This document shows positions 1 through 5,917 of a DNA stretch of 22,370 nucleotides, one piece after another. This DNA is from a virus. A program made the translations under genes and the position numbers. The notes below the pieces were generated by a model, which worked only from the letters and a program-made list of their open reading frames with translations, did no database searches and was not told the origin of the DNA. The stretch lies in IMG/VR virus record IMGVR_UViG_3300018080_000630, positions 1-22,370 of that record. One strand, 5' to 3'. Position 1 is the first letter of the stretch, and the number at the start of each line of letters is the position of its first letter.

Positions 1-33
1 GATTAACGCTATTAGTGTTATTATTGTTTTCAT
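1..33 (-). CDS. N-terminus of a small exported protein (partial)
   Basis: An ATG on the minus strand at 33-31 opens a frame that runs off the left edge of the window. The eleven visible residues, MKTIITLIALI, have a lysine followed by a hydrophobic stretch, as at the start of a signal peptide or membrane anchor. The leader is A/T rich with no Shine-Dalgarno sequence, like other genes here. It lies 43 bases downstream of the 38-residue membrane peptide on the same strand, so the two may be co-transcribed leftward. Function cannot be judged from this fragment. Confidence 0.4.
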   Translation of the reverse strand, partial: MKTIITLIALI

Positions 34-76
34 GATAATTTGTTGTTTACTTGTATTAATATTCTTATTGTGTTAG

Positions 77-250: not shown

Positions 251-512
251 TATAACGCACAAAGAAAGTGTAGTATTTTAACAAGTTTTAACCCTTCTTT
301 TTGTTTACATAGTTAAGTCGCTGTGAGTGAGGTGTTTAGGTGTGGCTGTTTTAGGGTGTTGTGGTAAAAAAAGGCAACATTTAAAAGGAAGGTGTGAAAA
401 TTAATTATTTTTTGAGGTGTAAAGTGTAAAGTTGGTGTTTTTAGGGAGTGTTAAAAAGTCTTTAGCGCGAAAAAAGGTGTTTTTTAGTTAGTTTGTTGGG
501 AATCAGCGTTTT

Positions 513-534
513 AAGGTGTTTTGGGTGTATACAA
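513..534 (+). repeat. Composite repeat, copy 1
   Basis: A 22-base unit made of two GGTGT words 9 bases apart, the second running into the palindrome TGTATACA (526-533). It matches 823-844 at 20 of 22 bases, differing only at unit positions 10 and 11. The copies are 310 bases apart. Confidence 0.6.
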
Positions 535-582
535 TATTTTTTTATTGTTGACATGTTTTGTTTACATGCCTTTTGCAGTGGT

Positions 583-624
583 GCAAAGGGTTATAGGTAT
601 GAGGTGTAAAAATAAACAAAGAAA
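583..624 (+). repeat. Dispersed direct repeat, unit A
   Basis: GCAAAGGG (583-590), ATA, GAGGTGTA (601-608) and ACAAAGAAA (616-624) occur in the same order as at 754-782, with small spacer differences. The two units share more than 25 positions and look like diverged duplicates. Confidence 0.5.
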
Positions 625-725
625 TGAGTGAAACTTCTTATATTGCTTTTTGAGATTTTGCCGGATAGAAAAATTCCCGGAATTGGTGAACTGCTGTTCA
701 GATCTTTTAGAAAACATTGTTTTTT

Positions 726-733
726 TGTATACA
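726..733. promoter_or_regulatory. TGTATACA palindrome, candidate operator half of a set
   Basis: TGTATACA is its own reverse complement. It occurs at 526-533, 726-733, 769-776 and 836-843 in the leader and once more at 1621-1628 before the large terminase promoter. Four perfect copies of an 8-base palindrome in about 320 bases exceed chance expectation. A dimeric regulator could bind it, but no protein in this window can be tied to it. Confidence 0.4.
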
Positions 734-753
734 AATGGCTGTAGAGGGTTGTA

Positions 754-782
754 GCAAAGGGATAGAGGTGTATACAAAGAAA
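754..782 (+). repeat. Dispersed direct repeat, unit B
   Basis: GCAAAGGG (754-761), ATA, GAGGTGTA (765-772) and ACAAAGAAA (774-782) are in the same order as in 583-624 but more compact. This unit contains a TGTATACA palindrome (769-776), which the A unit has lost or never had. Confidence 0.5.
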
Positions 783-822
783 AGTGTTAATTGATTTAAC
801 ATTAGCTATATGTACGTGGTAG

Positions 823-844
823 AAGGTGTTTAAGGTGTATACAA
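823..844 (+). repeat. Composite repeat, copy 2
   Basis: The second copy of the 22-base double GGTGT plus TGTATACA unit, 20 of 22 bases identical to 513-534. Its right part, AGGTGTATACAAAGAA at 833-848, is also repeated exactly at 766-781. It lies 72 bases before the small terminase start codon, close to any promoter of that gene, so it could act as an operator. Confidence 0.6.
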
Positions 845-857
845 AGAATTTTTGCTC

Positions 858-891
858 TTTGTTTATGTTTACAAATGTTAATTTATATTTT
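858..891 (+). promoter_or_regulatory. Candidate promoter for the small terminase gene
   Basis: TTTG at 858-861 is followed after 22 bases by TATATTTT at 884-891, seven of eight bases of the Bacteroidota -7 box. Spacing is one base longer than usual. The predicted start, about 895-900, would give a leader of roughly 20 bases. A second -7-like word, TATCTTTG at 904-911, is too close to the start codon to serve. Confidence 0.35.
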
Positions 892-915
892 AACATTTAT
901 GCTTATCTTTGAGGT

Positions 916-1368: not shown

Positions 1369-1546
1369 CACACAGGTACATGTTAACACTATCATTTTGT
1401 AAACGTTTTCCTATAAATAGTATTATGTTAAATAGACTTATGTAAGATATTAAGGATCAGCTAATTATGTGCCCGACAATAGCCTTTTCCTGGCCCGTAT
1501 CAGCTTTAAAGTTGTTTGTGTATAAATGTAAGCTTTTAACCCCGGT

Positions 1547-1581
1547 TGCTGTAGATCGTTTAATATATAGTTTAAACAGCA
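1547..1581 (+). repeat. Interrupted stem-loop in the terminase gap
   Basis: The inner arms GTTTAA (1558-1563) and TTAAAC (1572-1577) pair around an 8-base loop, and outer arms TGCT (1547-1550) and AGCA (1578-1581) pair across a 7-base one-sided bulge. No T-run follows, so it is not a typical terminator. It may be a protein-binding structure or chance. Confidence 0.3.
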
Positions 1582-1703
1582 GCGGACCAATAACAGCCGG
1601 TTCCTTATTTTCTATCTAATTGTATACAGCAGAGGCCCCCCGCCTTTTTACGCACAGCAAACGCCAACGGCCTTCCACCCCCACATTAATTTCCCCGCCG
1701 ATT

Positions 1704-1735
1704 TTTGATTAAATGAATCCTATTTCGTATCTTAG
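1704..1735 (+). promoter_or_regulatory. Promoter of the large terminase gene
   Basis: TTTG at 1704-1707, a 20-base spacer, then TATCTTAG at 1728-1735, which matches TANNTTTG at five of its six defined bases. This is the Bacteroidota housekeeping promoter form. The start would fall near 1740, leaving a leader of about 25-28 A/C-rich bases before the ATG at 1768. Confidence 0.6.
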
Positions 1736-1767
1736 CCGCTGCTACTAACATATCTAAACAACACATT

Positions 1768-3258
1768 ATGCCTCAGCAATTAAATTTTGACCGCAATTTC
1801 TTATATTTCTATTTAGTATGGGTTTATAAGACGTGCCGCAACTTACCTAACCCCGATGTCACAACAGAAGATCACCCCGAAGGTGTACCGACTATACCCG
1901 TGGTATATAACCAGGGAGGAACAAGGTCTGCAAAGACTTGGGAGATAATAGCTTTCATTTATACTTTCTGCGACCACAACCGAAACTCACGCCACAAAGT
2001 AGGAGTGTACAGGGATACCATGGTTAATTGTAGAGATATTACTTTAACGGATTTTGTTGATTGTTTTGAGTACATAGGGTTGGAGCCGGATGTGGATTAC
2101 GATATTGTCCGCTCACCTAGACCTATTATCACTATCGGGAAATGCACGATTGAGTTCATGGGTATACCCGAGCTAGGAAAGGAAGGCGGTAAAATGTCTA
2201 TCTGCTACATAAATGAGCTGATCGAGAATAATAATCAGCAGGTGGTAAAGAATCTTTTCCAACGTACTACTCACATGTGTATAGGGGATTGGAACCCTTC
2301 GGTTACTGAGCATTGGTGCTTAAGCGAAAAAGCGTTTAACTTACATAGGACTAATACTACGTATTTAGATAATGTTTTCTTACAGGATAGTTTGAAAAGC
2401 AAGTATGAGAGTTGGTGCCCTTGGGACTTTTCCGATTCTCATGTGGAGACGTATGGGCAGATTGAGGTAAACGGGAAGTTAGAAGGGGGATTTAAAAGAC
2501 GTGTTTGGCATAAACCCGAATGTCCCGAAGGGGAAATATGGACCACCGCTCATCGAAAACCCAATAAGTATAACATAGAGAACGGGACTGCCGATAGGGT
2601 GCAGTGGTTGGTATACGGAGAGGGTATACCTTGCGCCAGGGAAGGCTCGATATATGAGGTGGATGAGTGGATCAATGCGTTCCCGAATGATGATTATGAG
2701 GATCTGAACTACGGACTGGATTTTGGGTACTCTAATGACCCTTCTTCGTTAGTGAAAGTAGGTAGGCGCTCTCGCGAACTGACGATAAAATATGAGTTTA
2801 ATGCGCCCACCAAAGACCCTTTTGTGCTATGGGAGTGCATACGGCCGATACTACAGGAAGAAGAGGATCGCCGCCGAATTGAGCACGGGTGGAAAAAGAA
2901 AGATGACGGTACATGGGAACAAGGGCATAAGTATCCCGAGATCCTCATAGTCTGCGACTCTAAGGACACAAGTGAGGGGTATCATTTTGTGAATGACCTT
3001 AATCTTTTGGCCCATGGGGAAGGTAAGGGTTGGTACTTCTTCAAATGTAAGAAACCAAAGATAACGGTCCGCATAGGTATAATGAACCGCTTCCGATTAA
3101 GGGTAGTAAGGGACAAGACTGCAGAGTTTGAGTTTAATAATTACGTGTGGAAGATAATAGATGGCCGCTCGGTCAACATCCCCGTGGATAAGAATAACCA
3201 CGGGTTAGATGCTGCCGGCTATAAGGTGTTTACTTTCGATAGGTTCGCGGTGGAATAA
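1768..3258 (+). CDS. terL: Terminase large subunit, ATPase and nuclease
   Basis: The 496-residue product is the DNA-packaging motor that docks on the portal, translocates DNA and cuts the concatemer. The N-terminal ATPase has a Walker A-type loop at residues 48-57 (NQGGTRSAKT), a Walker B strand with catalytic acid at 145-150 (ICYINE) and a coupling-type motif at 173-178 (GDWNPS). The C-terminal RNase H-like nuclease shows three spaced acids: D318 in YGLDFGYSNDPS, D397 in ILIVCDSKD and D481 in NHGLDAAGY. Motif order and length fit the Terminase_3/6 type. It has its own promoter and ends three bases before the stop of a convergent 51-residue ORF. GGTRSAKT departs from the commoner GGRGSGKS form but keeps the lysine. 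Nothing suggests truncation. Confidence 0.95.
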   Translation: MPQQLNFDRNFLYFYLVWVYKTCRNLPNPDVTTEDHPEGVPTIPVVYNQGGTRSAKTWEIIAFIYTFCDHNRNSRHKVGVYRDTMVNCRDITLTDFVDCFEYIGLEPDVDYDIVRSPRPIITIGKCTIEFMGIPELGKEGGKMSICYINELIENNNQQVVKNLFQRTTHMCIGDWNPSVTEHWCLSEKAFNLHRTNTTYLDNVFLQDSLKSKYESWCPWDFSDSHVETYGQIEVNGKLEGGFKRRVWHKPECPEGEIWTTAHRKPNKYNIENGTADRVQWLVYGEGIPCAREGSIYEVDEWINAFPNDDYEDLNYGLDFGYSNDPSSLVKVGRRSRELTIKYEFNAPTKDPFVLWECIRPILQEEEDRRRIEHGWKKKDDGTWEQGHKYPEILIVCDSKDTSEGYHFVNDLNLLAHGEGKGWYFFKCKKPKITVRIGIMNRFRLRVVRDKTAEFEFNNYVWKIIDGRSVNIPVDKNNHGLDAAGYKVFTFDRFAVE

Positions 3259-3261
3259 GAA

Positions 3262-3417
3262 CTATTGGTTTAGTTCAATGTTTGCTTGTTTTTCAGCCTC
3301 CTTTACGAGGCTTTCTATTTTGAACTCTATCCGGTCTAACCTATCCATACTTTTTTTAATTCGGTATACACTTACACAGGAAAGTATTATAGCTGTTATT
3401 ATAATTATTCTTTTCAT
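3262..3417 (-). CDS. 51-residue membrane-anchored peptide
   Basis: The frame runs from ATG 3417-3415 to TAG 3264-3262. After MKR comes a hydrophobic segment at residues 4-17 (IIIITAIILSCVSV) containing a cysteine, then a charged helical tail (RIKKSMDRLDRIEFKIE and onward) with regularly spaced Leu, Ile and Val that suggests a short coiled coil. An N-in membrane peptide or small lipoprotein are both possible; the lipobox is weak. It begins ten bases after the stop of the XRE regulator on the same strand, so the two most likely form one operon. No function can be assigned. The tight spacing and sensible composition are the support. Confidence 0.5.
   Translation of the reverse strand: MKRIIIITAIILSCVSVYRIKKSMDRLDRIEFKIESLVKEAEKQANIELNQ
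3295..3321 (+). terminator. Candidate terminator of the large terminase transcript
   Basis: AGCCTC (3295-3300) and GAGGCT (3307-3312) form a perfect 6-base stem with a CTTTAC loop, followed by TTCTATTTT. It lies 37 bases past the terL stop. The T tract is on the plus-strand side only, so it would stop rightward transcription. It is inside the coding region of the convergent small gene, and the stem is short. Confidence 0.4.
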
Positions 3418-3427
3418 AATCATTTGT

Positions 3428-3694
3428 TTAAATTATTCCGTTAATTTTATACCCGTGTCTTTCTATGTTTTCACAAACACATCTTTGCATAATTATCGTT
3501 GAATCAAAGAAATTAGCATAAATCAAAACGCTATCCAAAGCAACCGAACGACCTTTCTCTACTTTGTAGACCGTTGGTTGGGTTAACCCCGTCGCTTCTG
3601 CTATTTTTCTAGCACTTAGTTTTCTTCGTGTTCGCATTTTGAACAAGCTATCGCCTATCTCTCTGCGTCTTTGTTGTAGTTCTTCGTGTGTCAT
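3428..3694 (-). CDS. XRE-family helix-turn-helix regulator
   Basis: The 88-residue product has a Cro/CI-type DNA-binding domain at about residues 13-66: helix 1 GDSLFKMRTRRK, turn region LSARKIAEATG, recognition helix TQPTVYKVEKGRS, then a helix with ALDSVLIYANFF. The tail is short with two cysteines (RCVCENIERHGY). The frame is open to an ATG at 3715, but the internal ATG at 3694 is preferred: it follows an A/T-rich leader, and the strong promoter at 3722-3752 would start transcription at about 3716, leaving a 20-base leader. The gene is antisense to everything around it, between terL and the portal. It may repress the divergent portal promoter, autoregulate, or act on repeats elsewhere. It could be a prophage moron or an antitoxin-like protein, but no toxin is visible beyond the 51-residue partner. 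Confidence 0.8.
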   Translation of the reverse strand: MTHEELQQRRREIGDSLFKMRTRRKLSARKIAEATGLTQPTVYKVEKGRSVALDSVLIYANFFDSTIIMQRCVCENIERHGYKINGII

Positions 3695-3721
3695 TGTATT
3701 TAATTTATAAAACATCGTTTA

Positions 3722-3752
3722 CAAAGCTATATATATTTAGGAGAAAACCAAA
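3722..3752 (-). promoter_or_regulatory. Strong Bacteroidota promoter of the XRE regulator
   Basis: On the minus strand TTTG (complement of 3749-3752), exactly 19 bases, then TAGCTTTG (complement of 3722-3729). Both boxes match TTTG-N19-TANNTTTG perfectly. This is the best promoter in the window and supports both the host phylum and real expression of the antisense cassette. It overlaps the divergent rightward promoter, so the regulator could control both. Confidence 0.75.
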
Positions 3753-3769
3753 GAAAAAGTGTACTTTTG
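3736..3769 (+). promoter_or_regulatory. Rightward promoter for the portal and head-tail operon
   Basis: TACTTTTG at 3762-3769 matches TANNTTTG exactly. The -33 side has only TTTA (3736-3739) or TTAG (3737-3740), 21-22 bases upstream. The start would be near 3775, about 15 bases before the portal ATG. A weak -33 box suggests that an activator or phage factor may be used. Confidence 0.5.
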
Positions 3770-3789
3770 GAGTAATTTAACGTTTAATT

Positions 3790-4989
3790 ATGGCGATACC
3801 CGATTTTTTTAGAAGAGTATTTGATAAAAGATGGCGCAGAACAGACGTGTATAACTCCGTCTACGGTCAGAAAACGGAGATAAATACATCTACCGTTCAA
3901 GGGCAAGCTGACGCTTATACTCGGTGTCCTGTGGTTAATACGGCGATAGGAGTGGCTTCCAGGGCGCACTCTAACCTTAAAGTAAGGGCGGTAGATAAAA
4001 ACGGAAGGGATGTCGATAACCAAACGGTGGACGCAGACCTTAAGAAACTAAAACGGTTTAACGAGTATCAGAATTTCCGCACTTTCAACCTTCAGCTTAA
4101 AACCTACCTCCTTATATTTGGGAAAGCTTACGTACTTAAAGATAAGCTGATAGGGGTAGACAAATATTATTATTACATTATACCAAATACAGTTATAACC
4201 CCTGTTTACGACTTAACGGGACATGATTCAATGTTCAATAAGAAGGTAAGTAAGTACCAGGTGACAGTGAACGGGGAAGTTATGTACCTGTCAACAAAAG
4301 AGGTGTCGGTTATATATGACTCCTGCTTTGATTTTTCAGGGGACGGTTTAGGTGCATCTCGTTTAGAGAGCTTAAAGGAGCCGGTTTCTACTATCCTTAG
4401 TTCATTGGAGGCTAGTACACAGCTTCACGCAGATGGCGGGGCTAGAGGTATAGTAGTGTTAGGGGAGAGTGACAGCGATAAACTGCACAACCCTCTACTA
4501 GAGAAAGAGAAAGAGAACTTACAGGATAGTTTGAAAGGGTACGGGCTGTTAAGGGATAAGTTTAAGTACATTATATCCAAGACGGCAGCAAGTTTTGTCC
4601 CTATGACCACTAAGGTAGTGGATATGGACATACCTGCCATTTACAACATAGCCGAAAAGGCAGTTTACAAGGTATACGGTATACCCCCTATCATGGGCCA
4701 GGATGAGACAAGGTACAAAGCATTACCTGAAGCGACCAGTGTATTGTACACAGGCTCGGTTATACCTGAAGGGGTGGACATTATTAACGCTTTAGTAGAG
4801 TTGGTAGGTATACCCGATAGAAAATGGGCGTATCAGCCTGATTGGTCACATTTAGATGTGTTCCAGGAGAGCTTAGCTAAGTCAGCTAACGCTTTAACGC
4901 AAGCCGCGCAGGCTATTAACCAACTATCGCAGATAGAAAGTGTTACCCCGGAGCAGATAAAGTACATTTTAGAACCTTATATACGTTAA
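3790..4989 (+). CDS. Portal protein, HK97 family
   Basis: The 399-residue product forms the dodecameric ring at one capsid vertex through which the terminase packages DNA and to which the connectors attach. It shows the HK97-type (Phage_portal) pattern: a short basic N-terminus, a VNTAIGVASRAHSNL helix at residues 49-63, a G-rich GDGLGASRLESL segment at 184-195, and the typical KVYGIPPIMG motif near 294-303 followed by a helical region. Length is typical. It is followed within two bases by a 33-residue ORF and then the protease, the usual portal, protease, capsid order. A clear -7 promoter box lies 20 bases upstream. The ATG follows an A/T-rich leader. Confidence 0.9.
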   Translation: MAIPDFFRRVFDKRWRRTDVYNSVYGQKTEINTSTVQGQADAYTRCPVVNTAIGVASRAHSNLKVRAVDKNGRDVDNQTVDADLKKLKRFNEYQNFRTFNLQLKTYLLIFGKAYVLKDKLIGVDKYYYYIIPNTVITPVYDLTGHDSMFNKKVSKYQVTVNGEVMYLSTKEVSVIYDSCFDFSGDGLGASRLESLKEPVSTILSSLEASTQLHADGGARGIVVLGESDSDKLHNPLLEKEKENLQDSLKGYGLLRDKFKYIISKTAASFVPMTTKVVDMDIPAIYNIAEKAVYKVYGIPPIMGQDETRYKALPEATSVLYTGSVIPEGVDIINALVELVGIPDRKWAYQPDWSHLDVFQESLAKSANALTQAAQAINQLSQIESVTPEQIKYILEPYIR

Positions 4990-5093: not shown

Positions 5094-5917
5094 TAGATAT
5101 TCCACAATTTGAGACAAAAACCGAACTTTTCGATCACCTGGTAGAGCATAAAAACGAGTTGATACAGCAAAAGAAGTTCGAGATGAAGAAAGCTGACGGC
5201 TTTAGCTTTTTCTCGTCCGCGGTTAATGAAAAAGGGGAGGCAGTGAAGGCTAAACCTGAAGACCTAATGTCGAAAGACAGCTTAAAGGTAAAAGTGGTCA
5301 TTAATACCACTAACCTTTTAGACTCTCACTCAGATGTTCACATGAAAGGCATATGGAACCGCACCGTTAAGAACGCTAAGGACGTATACTTATTACAGGA
5401 GCATCAGATGAAGTTCGATAACATAATTGCTTCCGATGTAAAAGCCACCGTTCAGACGATGACATGGAAACAGCTAGGGATTGACCTTAAGGGTACCACC
5501 GAGGCTTTGGTTTTCGAAGCGAACATAGAGAAGAGCCGCAACGAGAAAATGTTCAACCGTTACGCTAAAGGTGAAGTGAAGAACCATAGCGTAGGTATGC
5601 AATATGTACAGCTTAAACTATGTATAGAAGATAAGAGATACAAAGAAGAAAGAGCAAACTGGGACGAATATATTTCAGAGGTAGCCAATGTAGAGTTGGC
5701 CGAAGAACAAGGATATTTTTGGGCCGTTACTGAGGCAAAGATGATCGAAGGGTCAGCCGTAGTAAAAGGATCCAATTACGCTACTCCGACGTTATCAGCA
5801 AAAAGTGACTCGTCAGACGACACTCACAAAGGTACTCGCGAAAGCACTACCGAAGGCTTAGACTTGGGGGCGATAAAAAATGAGTTAAGTAATCAATTTA
5901 GTAAACTTAAAAATTAG
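5090..5917 (+). CDS. Prohead protease, HK97/S78-like
   Basis: The 275-residue product would cleave the capsid scaffold domain inside the prohead. The catalytic triad pattern of the family can be read: His105 in LLQEHQ, Ser167 in NHSVGMQY and Glu220 in MIEGSAVVKGSN, the last matching the usual E-x-S-x-V-xx-xxN ending of the fold. A VVINTTNLLDSHSDVHMKG segment at residues 69-87 corresponds to the typical entry strand. The C-terminal 45 residues are Ser, Thr, Glu and Lys rich and may be scaffold-like. It overlaps the preceding 33-residue ORF by four bases and ends five bases before the capsid gene. Residue roles are inferred from motif order, not alignment. Confidence 0.8.
   Translation: MIDIPQFETKTELFDHLVEHKNELIQQKKFEMKKADGFSFFSSAVNEKGEAVKAKPEDLMSKDSLKVKVVINTTNLLDSHSDVHMKGIWNRTVKNAKDVYLLQEHQMKFDNIIASDVKATVQTMTWKQLGIDLKGTTEALVFEANIEKSRNEKMFNRYAKGEVKNHSVGMQYVQLKLCIEDKRYKEERANWDEYISEVANVELAEEQGYFWAVTEAKMIEGSAVVKGSNYATPTLSAKSDSSDDTHKGTRESTTEGLDLGAIKNELSNQFSKLKN

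Follow-up and report, generated by a model that had tools for sequence, protein, structure and literature searches.

The DNA analysed here, referred to as the window, belongs to a Bacteroidota tailed phage that, judged by the IMG study numbers, was probably sampled in salt marsh; the virus record is linear and 22,370 bp long. Comparison with its relatives gives about an even chance that a group of tailed Bacteroidota phages uses host XerC/XerD, by way of a dif-like att or dimer-resolution site in the gap between the small and large terminase genes, terS and terL, and that this site lies beside a divergent origin or switch region in which an array of one-strand words diverges fast while the architecture is kept. 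The array itself, made up of GGTGT words upstream of terS, had been singled out by a sequence-only reading as most simply a packaging initiation site; the dif-like site is the more striking feature of the two.

Genome setting

The late operon of the window runs rightward and comprises terL, a portal gene (Phage_portal), a protease-like gene, a major capsid gene (Phage_capsid) and further virion structural genes. The 150-residue protein encoded ahead of terL had been proposed to be the small terminase, an identification that is borne out by a weak match to PHROG 1482 (small terminase) and by its predicted fold: the top BFVD matches of a moderate single-sequence AlphaFold model (pLDDT 70) are named small terminase, including that of Cellulophaga phage phi18:2. 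The best PDB matches, to Sf6 TerS, were not significant, and a comparison with annotated phages returned no match. An HTH_3 regulator gene with its own leftward promoter is embedded between terL and the portal gene (3428-3789). Two 43-nt stretches of the window (2-44 and 3386-3428) share 79% identity, and in each of them a small leftward ORF for a membrane-protein-like product has its start.

Table 1. Features of the window, with positions counted from its first letter
Feature	Position	Strand	Remark
Nearest leftward ORF, 38 aa	77-193	minus	taken from the sequence itself
Divergent non-coding region, with small leftward genes on one side and rightward terS on the other	194-915 (722 bp)		from the left extension in L002
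Leftward -7 element, TATATTTG	220-227	minus	for the left genes
Operator-like TGTWTACA, seven copies	302, 526, 559, 726, 769, 836, 866 (span 302-873)
GGTGT array, 13 copies and 0 ACACC	331-838 (starts 331, 339, 355, 391, 416, 434, 476, 515, 524, 603, 767, 825, 834)	plus	C-poor, G/T-rich strand
Composite word GGTGTATACAATA	524-536	plus
Composite word GGTGTATACAAAG	767-779	plus
Composite word GGTGTATACAAAG	834-846	plus
Perfect 9-bp inverted repeat, AAATGTTAA-N8-TTAACATTT	873-898		just upstream of the terS promoter element
Bacteroidota -7 element (TAnnTTTG), TATCTTTG	904-911	plus	sole rightward one in 1-1800
terS (small terminase)	916-1368	plus	150 aa, or 139 aa from ATG 949
Non-coding terS-terL gap	1369-1767		also in L209 and L211
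Box A, dif-like XerC/XerD site, 28 bp, TTTTCCTATAA-ATAGTA-TTATGTTAAAT	1406-1433	plus
Box B, conserved box CCCCGCCTTTTTACGC (motif CCCCGCCTTTTTRCGC)	1638-1653	plus	candidate packaging element
terL (large terminase)	1768-3258	plus
HTH_3 regulator gene	3428-3715	minus	own sigma-ABfr promoter at ~3751-3722

A dif-like site and a second conserved box between terS and terL

Protein scans identified many distant relatives of the window phage. In the relatives that were mapped through portal, MCP or protease-like genes and that include DNA upstream of terL, terS usually stands closely behind other genes and no leader like that of the window was seen. The exceptions to this placement are three contigs: L211, whose TerL is 30% identical to that of the window, L209, with 33% identity and a non-coding terS-terL gap, and L210, which shares the TerL protein start of L211 and includes only 249 bp upstream of terL. 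The terS-terL gap is unusual in itself and holds sequence that is conserved across phages with TerL proteins only ~30% identical.

The first of the conserved elements, Box A, consists of a 6-bp centre between two 11-bp arms, and the arms match the Bacteroidota chromosomal dif. Sites of this kind are present in four phage lineages, with those outside the window located at ~257-284 in L209, ~5361-5388 in L211 and ~3436-3463 (minus strand) in L044; three of the four lie in the terS-terL gap, and the fourth, in L044, is oppositely oriented within a large non-coding gap. The phage sites fit the pattern CCTATAA-N6-TTATGTYAART with 0 mismatches. On the host side, CCTATAA-N6-TTATGTTAARTA is found with at most two mismatches in 139 of 198 Bacteroidota genomes, where most well-matching sites are variants of one 25-mer, e.g. 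CCTATAATTAATATTATGTTAAATA. As a reversed-pattern control also gave scattered 2-mismatch matches in host genomes, single weak matches do not count as dif. In the 2.38 Mb of loci that were fetched, nothing but the window with its near-identical contig L002, L209, L211 and L044 carries the exact arms, and the reversed control pattern has one match at two mismatches or fewer. The centre of the L211 site, TTTATA, is one that is common in hosts, unlike the remaining phage centres, which are not those of the hosts listed.

Proviruses of Bacteroidetes microviruses sit at dif-like sites (PMC3091885), and tailed phages go unmentioned in a review of Xer elements, as judged by searching its words (PMC5357621). 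Among annotated phages, the best dif-like matches belong mostly to small microviruses and Acinetobacter phages, with weak ones in larger phages. No integrated relative or prophage was found at a host dif, and the one strong terL relative in 395 host genomes does not lie beside dif. No integrase was noticed among the scanned ORFs of the window and of the L211 left arm, both genomes being partial.

The second conserved element, Box B, matches its L211 counterpart (5481-5496, CCCCGCCTTTTTGCGC) at 15 of 16 positions, and the L211 and L209 versions (the latter at ~518-531, CCCTTTTTGCGCCT) share 13 identical bases. By position and conservation only, Box B would be a better packaging-site candidate than the leader, and the comparison makes it more likely that the packaging signal lies in the terS-terL gap than upstream of terS. 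Between Box B and terL, L211 also has a ~22-bp repeat, AAGGCGCAAACTGCTTTATAC, in some seven copies, together with GACTTACCCC repeats (5585-5735).

A one-strand word array in C-poor DNA

An exact recount confirmed every GGTGT start and the absence of ACACC in 331-838, an interval that, as had been stated, does not code for protein and is crossed by short mechanical ORFs only. The window as a whole has 24 GGTGT and 13 ACACC, and in the 21.9 kb outside the interval the two are balanced, at 11 and 13 copies. Shuffling the interval 1000 times while preserving mono-, di- or trinucleotides gave an expected 1.3, 2.0 and 4.4 copies of GGTGT, respectively, with maxima of 6, 6 and 10, and thus never reached 13; tetranucleotide shuffles gave a mean of 10.0 and reached 13 in 1.6% of cases, so that the excess over this control is mild. 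Ten of the copies extend to AGGTGT. The complete strand bias had been taken to indicate a directional word, and the bias itself stands; its weight as evidence does not, being mostly a matter of C depletion. The interval is composed of A 29.5, C 7.1, G 26.4 and T 37.0%, ACACC is expected only ~0.04 times in dinucleotide shuffles, and because the strand has so little C, the absence of the complement adds no extra evidence. What the interval holds is best described as a series of AGGTG/GGTGT-type words on a strand that contains 7% C, 26% G and 37% T. A strand-exclusive pentamer cluster of this size is uncommon, not unique: at least 13 strand-exclusive copies of some GC-containing pentamer within 508 bp were found in 9 of 220 other viral loci.

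The words might have no specific function, with GGTGT the commonest word of a C-depleted, G/U-rich strand that is selected for, or left by, transcription. Rightward RNA without C would escape Rho, and the antisense RNA (C 26%, G 7%), a C-over-G rut-like stretch, would stop leftward read-through. Consistent with such a strand effect, the GC skew of the array region (0.58 in 331-838, 0.48 in 199-915) exceeds that of every other one of the 134 non-coding gaps measuring at least 350 bp in the loci examined (sd ~0.15), the tetranucleotide shuffles by themselves supply 10 copies, and there is no spacing rule, since neither a period nor a helical phase was detected (best R 0.57 versus a null median of 0.61). 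However, the di- and trinucleotide shuffles fall well short of the observed count, and the -7 element of terS lies downstream of the array, so rightward transcription of the array is not required. We consider a pure strand effect unlikely.

Searches for other functions of the leader gave little. Distant blastn of its DNA against annotated phages produced no meaningful match, Rfam returned nothing credible for 1-1800, folding of the plus strand as RNA was unremarkable (z -1.2), and a literature search on a Bacteroidota Chi site yielded nothing useful. A DNA-pattern scan for paired GTGTATACA matched 103 contigs, with no relatives among those fetched. The structure signal of the minus strand (z -3.5) was not read as an RNA fold, as it probably stems from symmetric palindromes, and RNA binding of the RbpB type was discarded, the paper in question describing a 41-nt sRNA motif without a GU word.

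All GGTGT words point towards the dif-like site at 1406, the orientation expected if they were polar words of the KOPS type, on which FtsK would be loaded and sent to that site. In the 400 kb around dif of four Bacteroidota genomes, which may not include the host of the phage, GGTGT is nevertheless not polar (1171 copies towards dif versus 1053 away, rank 140 of 1024), and neither is AGGTGT (265 versus 245). We rejected this role as extremely improbable. By contrast, GAGTAG (183 versus 72), GGAGTAG and GAAGA are polar towards dif in these genomes (loci L262-L341, 200 kb on each side); they are possible candidates for Bacteroidota FtsK-orienting words, to which gene-direction bias could also contribute.

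A divergent region with promoters and operator-like words

The contig L002 is 99.95% identical to the window over 5,515 bp, with three differences, none of them in the leader. It runs 2,072 bp further left than the window and carries only leftward genes in that stretch, which makes 194-915 a divergent intergenic region; the leftward genes beside the array are probably early genes. The left arm of the window phage, known for 2 kb only, shows no replication gene. Cumulative GC skew turns at a minimum at the left edge of the region, which is not independent evidence because such minima coincide with the switch of gene direction. Known Bacteroidota promoter spacing suggests that transcription begins at ~918, with terS translated from ATG 949 and not from 916. 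With this start, the array would lie upstream of the late promoter and not inside its leader; its reported location, non-coding and directly upstream of terS, holds. The best AT-rich tract of the window, at ~849-908, is modest (84% AT).

The operator-like word TGTWTACA is concentrated here, with seven copies in 302-873 and three in the other 21.8 kb. Three GGTGT copies are fused to it as GGTGTATACA, and AGGTGTATACAAAGAA is repeated exactly at 766 and 833. A phage regulator could bind TGTWTACA and the coupled GGTGT, switching the leftward promoter against the late promoter at 904 with no origin function involved; the HTH_3 protein is a possible, putative binder. Such an operator or activator array gains from the 9-bp palindrome, which covers DNA immediately ahead of the terS -7 element, from the CGTTTACAAAG word at 3716, which overlaps the -7 element of the HTH_3 regulator's own promoter, and from three similar words in the L211 terS-terL gap. 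The remaining ten of the 13 GGTGT copies are, however, unlinked to TGTWTACA, a matrix scan of the window ranks the site at 3714 no higher than 18th, and 13 irregular copies over 500 bp exceed the needs of a simple operator. We regard regulation alone as possible, though rather unlikely.

The same architecture with a different word in L211

In L211, leftward genes are followed by ~990 bp of non-coding DNA that is poor in C; terS comes next, separated from terL by a non-coding gap of 899 bp. The leader contains a one-strand array of ~7-8 copies of a 19-20-bp repeat (GGTTTTAGGTCCTTATCA, 3966-4138), direct repeats with the regular spacing of iterons, and after it a tract of 94% AT (~4278-4345). 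Canonical TTTG-N20/21-TAnnTTTG promoters stand on each side of the array, one leftward from 3879 and one rightward from 4577, and the GC-skew minimum again falls at the divergent region. The left operon, fetched as L231 and running away from the array, is of replication type, with genes for a RecE-like exonuclease, a zinc-ribbon DUF6371 protein, a DUF5906/VapE-like helicase, a DNA methylase, a DnaA C-terminal-domain protein and a SNF2-type helicase. The L211 left arm yielded no second non-coding iteron array of this kind; ATCCCCCCTCGAAAAAAAA occurs there six times, both within small genes and between them (L231 1029-1989).

The L211 leader has no GGTGT cluster, only scattered single copies, and shows no clear sequence similarity to that of the window (best E 0.006 within one pairwise search). 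In the one relative compared, the leader lacks the GGTGT array and holds a different repeat. As judged from sequence features, the divergent point, the one-strand array and the C-poor strand towards the late operon are common to both phages, and the word differs. Such a combination is what one would see in an origin or switch region co-evolving with its own initiator or regulator.

Tentatively, and with somewhat less than even confidence, we favour the view that the GGTGT array is part of a cis-acting region at the divergence of the leftward genes and the rightward late operon, serving as a replication origin or early-late switch. We infer origin function, a binding protein and a link to replication from the array, its composition, the divergent layout, the promoter elements and the L211 architecture with its flanking promoters and replication operon. 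An initiator or phage regulator would bind the repeated one-strand words and linked TGTWTACA sites, the adjacent AT-rich tract near the terS promoter would open, and replication and divergent transcription would start from 194-915; the leftward transcription unit would be an early/replication operon as in L211. Further support comes from two phages in which short repeated words (TAGTTACAG, GTTAACCT, ~six copies) occupy a gap (L015 5287-5519, L071 5093-5298) directly behind a large, probably replicative gene of 714-736 aa; these gaps are likely the origins there. Speaking against an origin or switch are, besides the modest AT tract, the missing replication gene in the 2 kb of left arm and the dependence of the skew minima on gene direction, the irregularity of the window array, which unlike that of L211 lacks regular spacing at one to two helical turns, the dissimilar leaders, and the lack of an initiator tied to the GGTGT words.

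These comparative data are a better fit to origin iterons or operators, both listed as alternatives by the sequence-only reading, than to its lead idea of a pac or cosB-like packaging initiation site bound by TerS. The array does lie directly upstream of a gene whose product is TerS by sequence and fold, and since the TerS proteins of the window and L211 fall in different PHROGs, their leaders could still be TerS-specific sites. Even so, L211, with the same layout, does not keep the word in its leader, and the conserved boxes are found in the terS-terL gap instead. The pac site of P22 is a single 22-bp sequence inside the gene for TerS, and DNA binding by most TerS proteins of pac phages is weak and non-specific (PMC9611059). 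Packaging initiation at the array is quite improbable.

Implications and comparison with known systems

Attention therefore moves from the leader, which looks like a replication or switch region, to the terS-terL gap with its host-matching dif site. If the proposed use of host XerC/XerD is true, there would be Xer-exploiting tailed phages or phage-plasmids in Bacteroidota. A working dif-like site would place tailed Bacteroidota phages alongside the microviruses and filamentous phages that borrow host chromosome-dimer resolution, would account for how such phages lysogenize or resolve dimers when they have no integrase, and would offer a short searchable signature for more such phages.

Compared with known systems, the array resembles the pac and cosB sites of P22, SPP1 and lambda in adjoining the terminase genes, and differs from them in that the leader of the window has no conserved repeat and the conserved elements lie downstream of terS. 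With iteron origins such as phage lambda ori and those of iteron plasmids it shares the repetition of words on one strand within a non-coding or early region, a likeness that extends in L211 to repeats of 19-20 bp adjoining an AT-rich tract; in the window, by contrast, the words are short and irregularly spaced, with no cognate initiator tied to them. The Xer-using (IMEX) filamentous phages and microviruses have, like the phages described here, a dif-like XerC/XerD site whose arms match the host dif; the difference is that no integration is seen here and that the site belongs to a tailed phage, which carries it between terS and terL.
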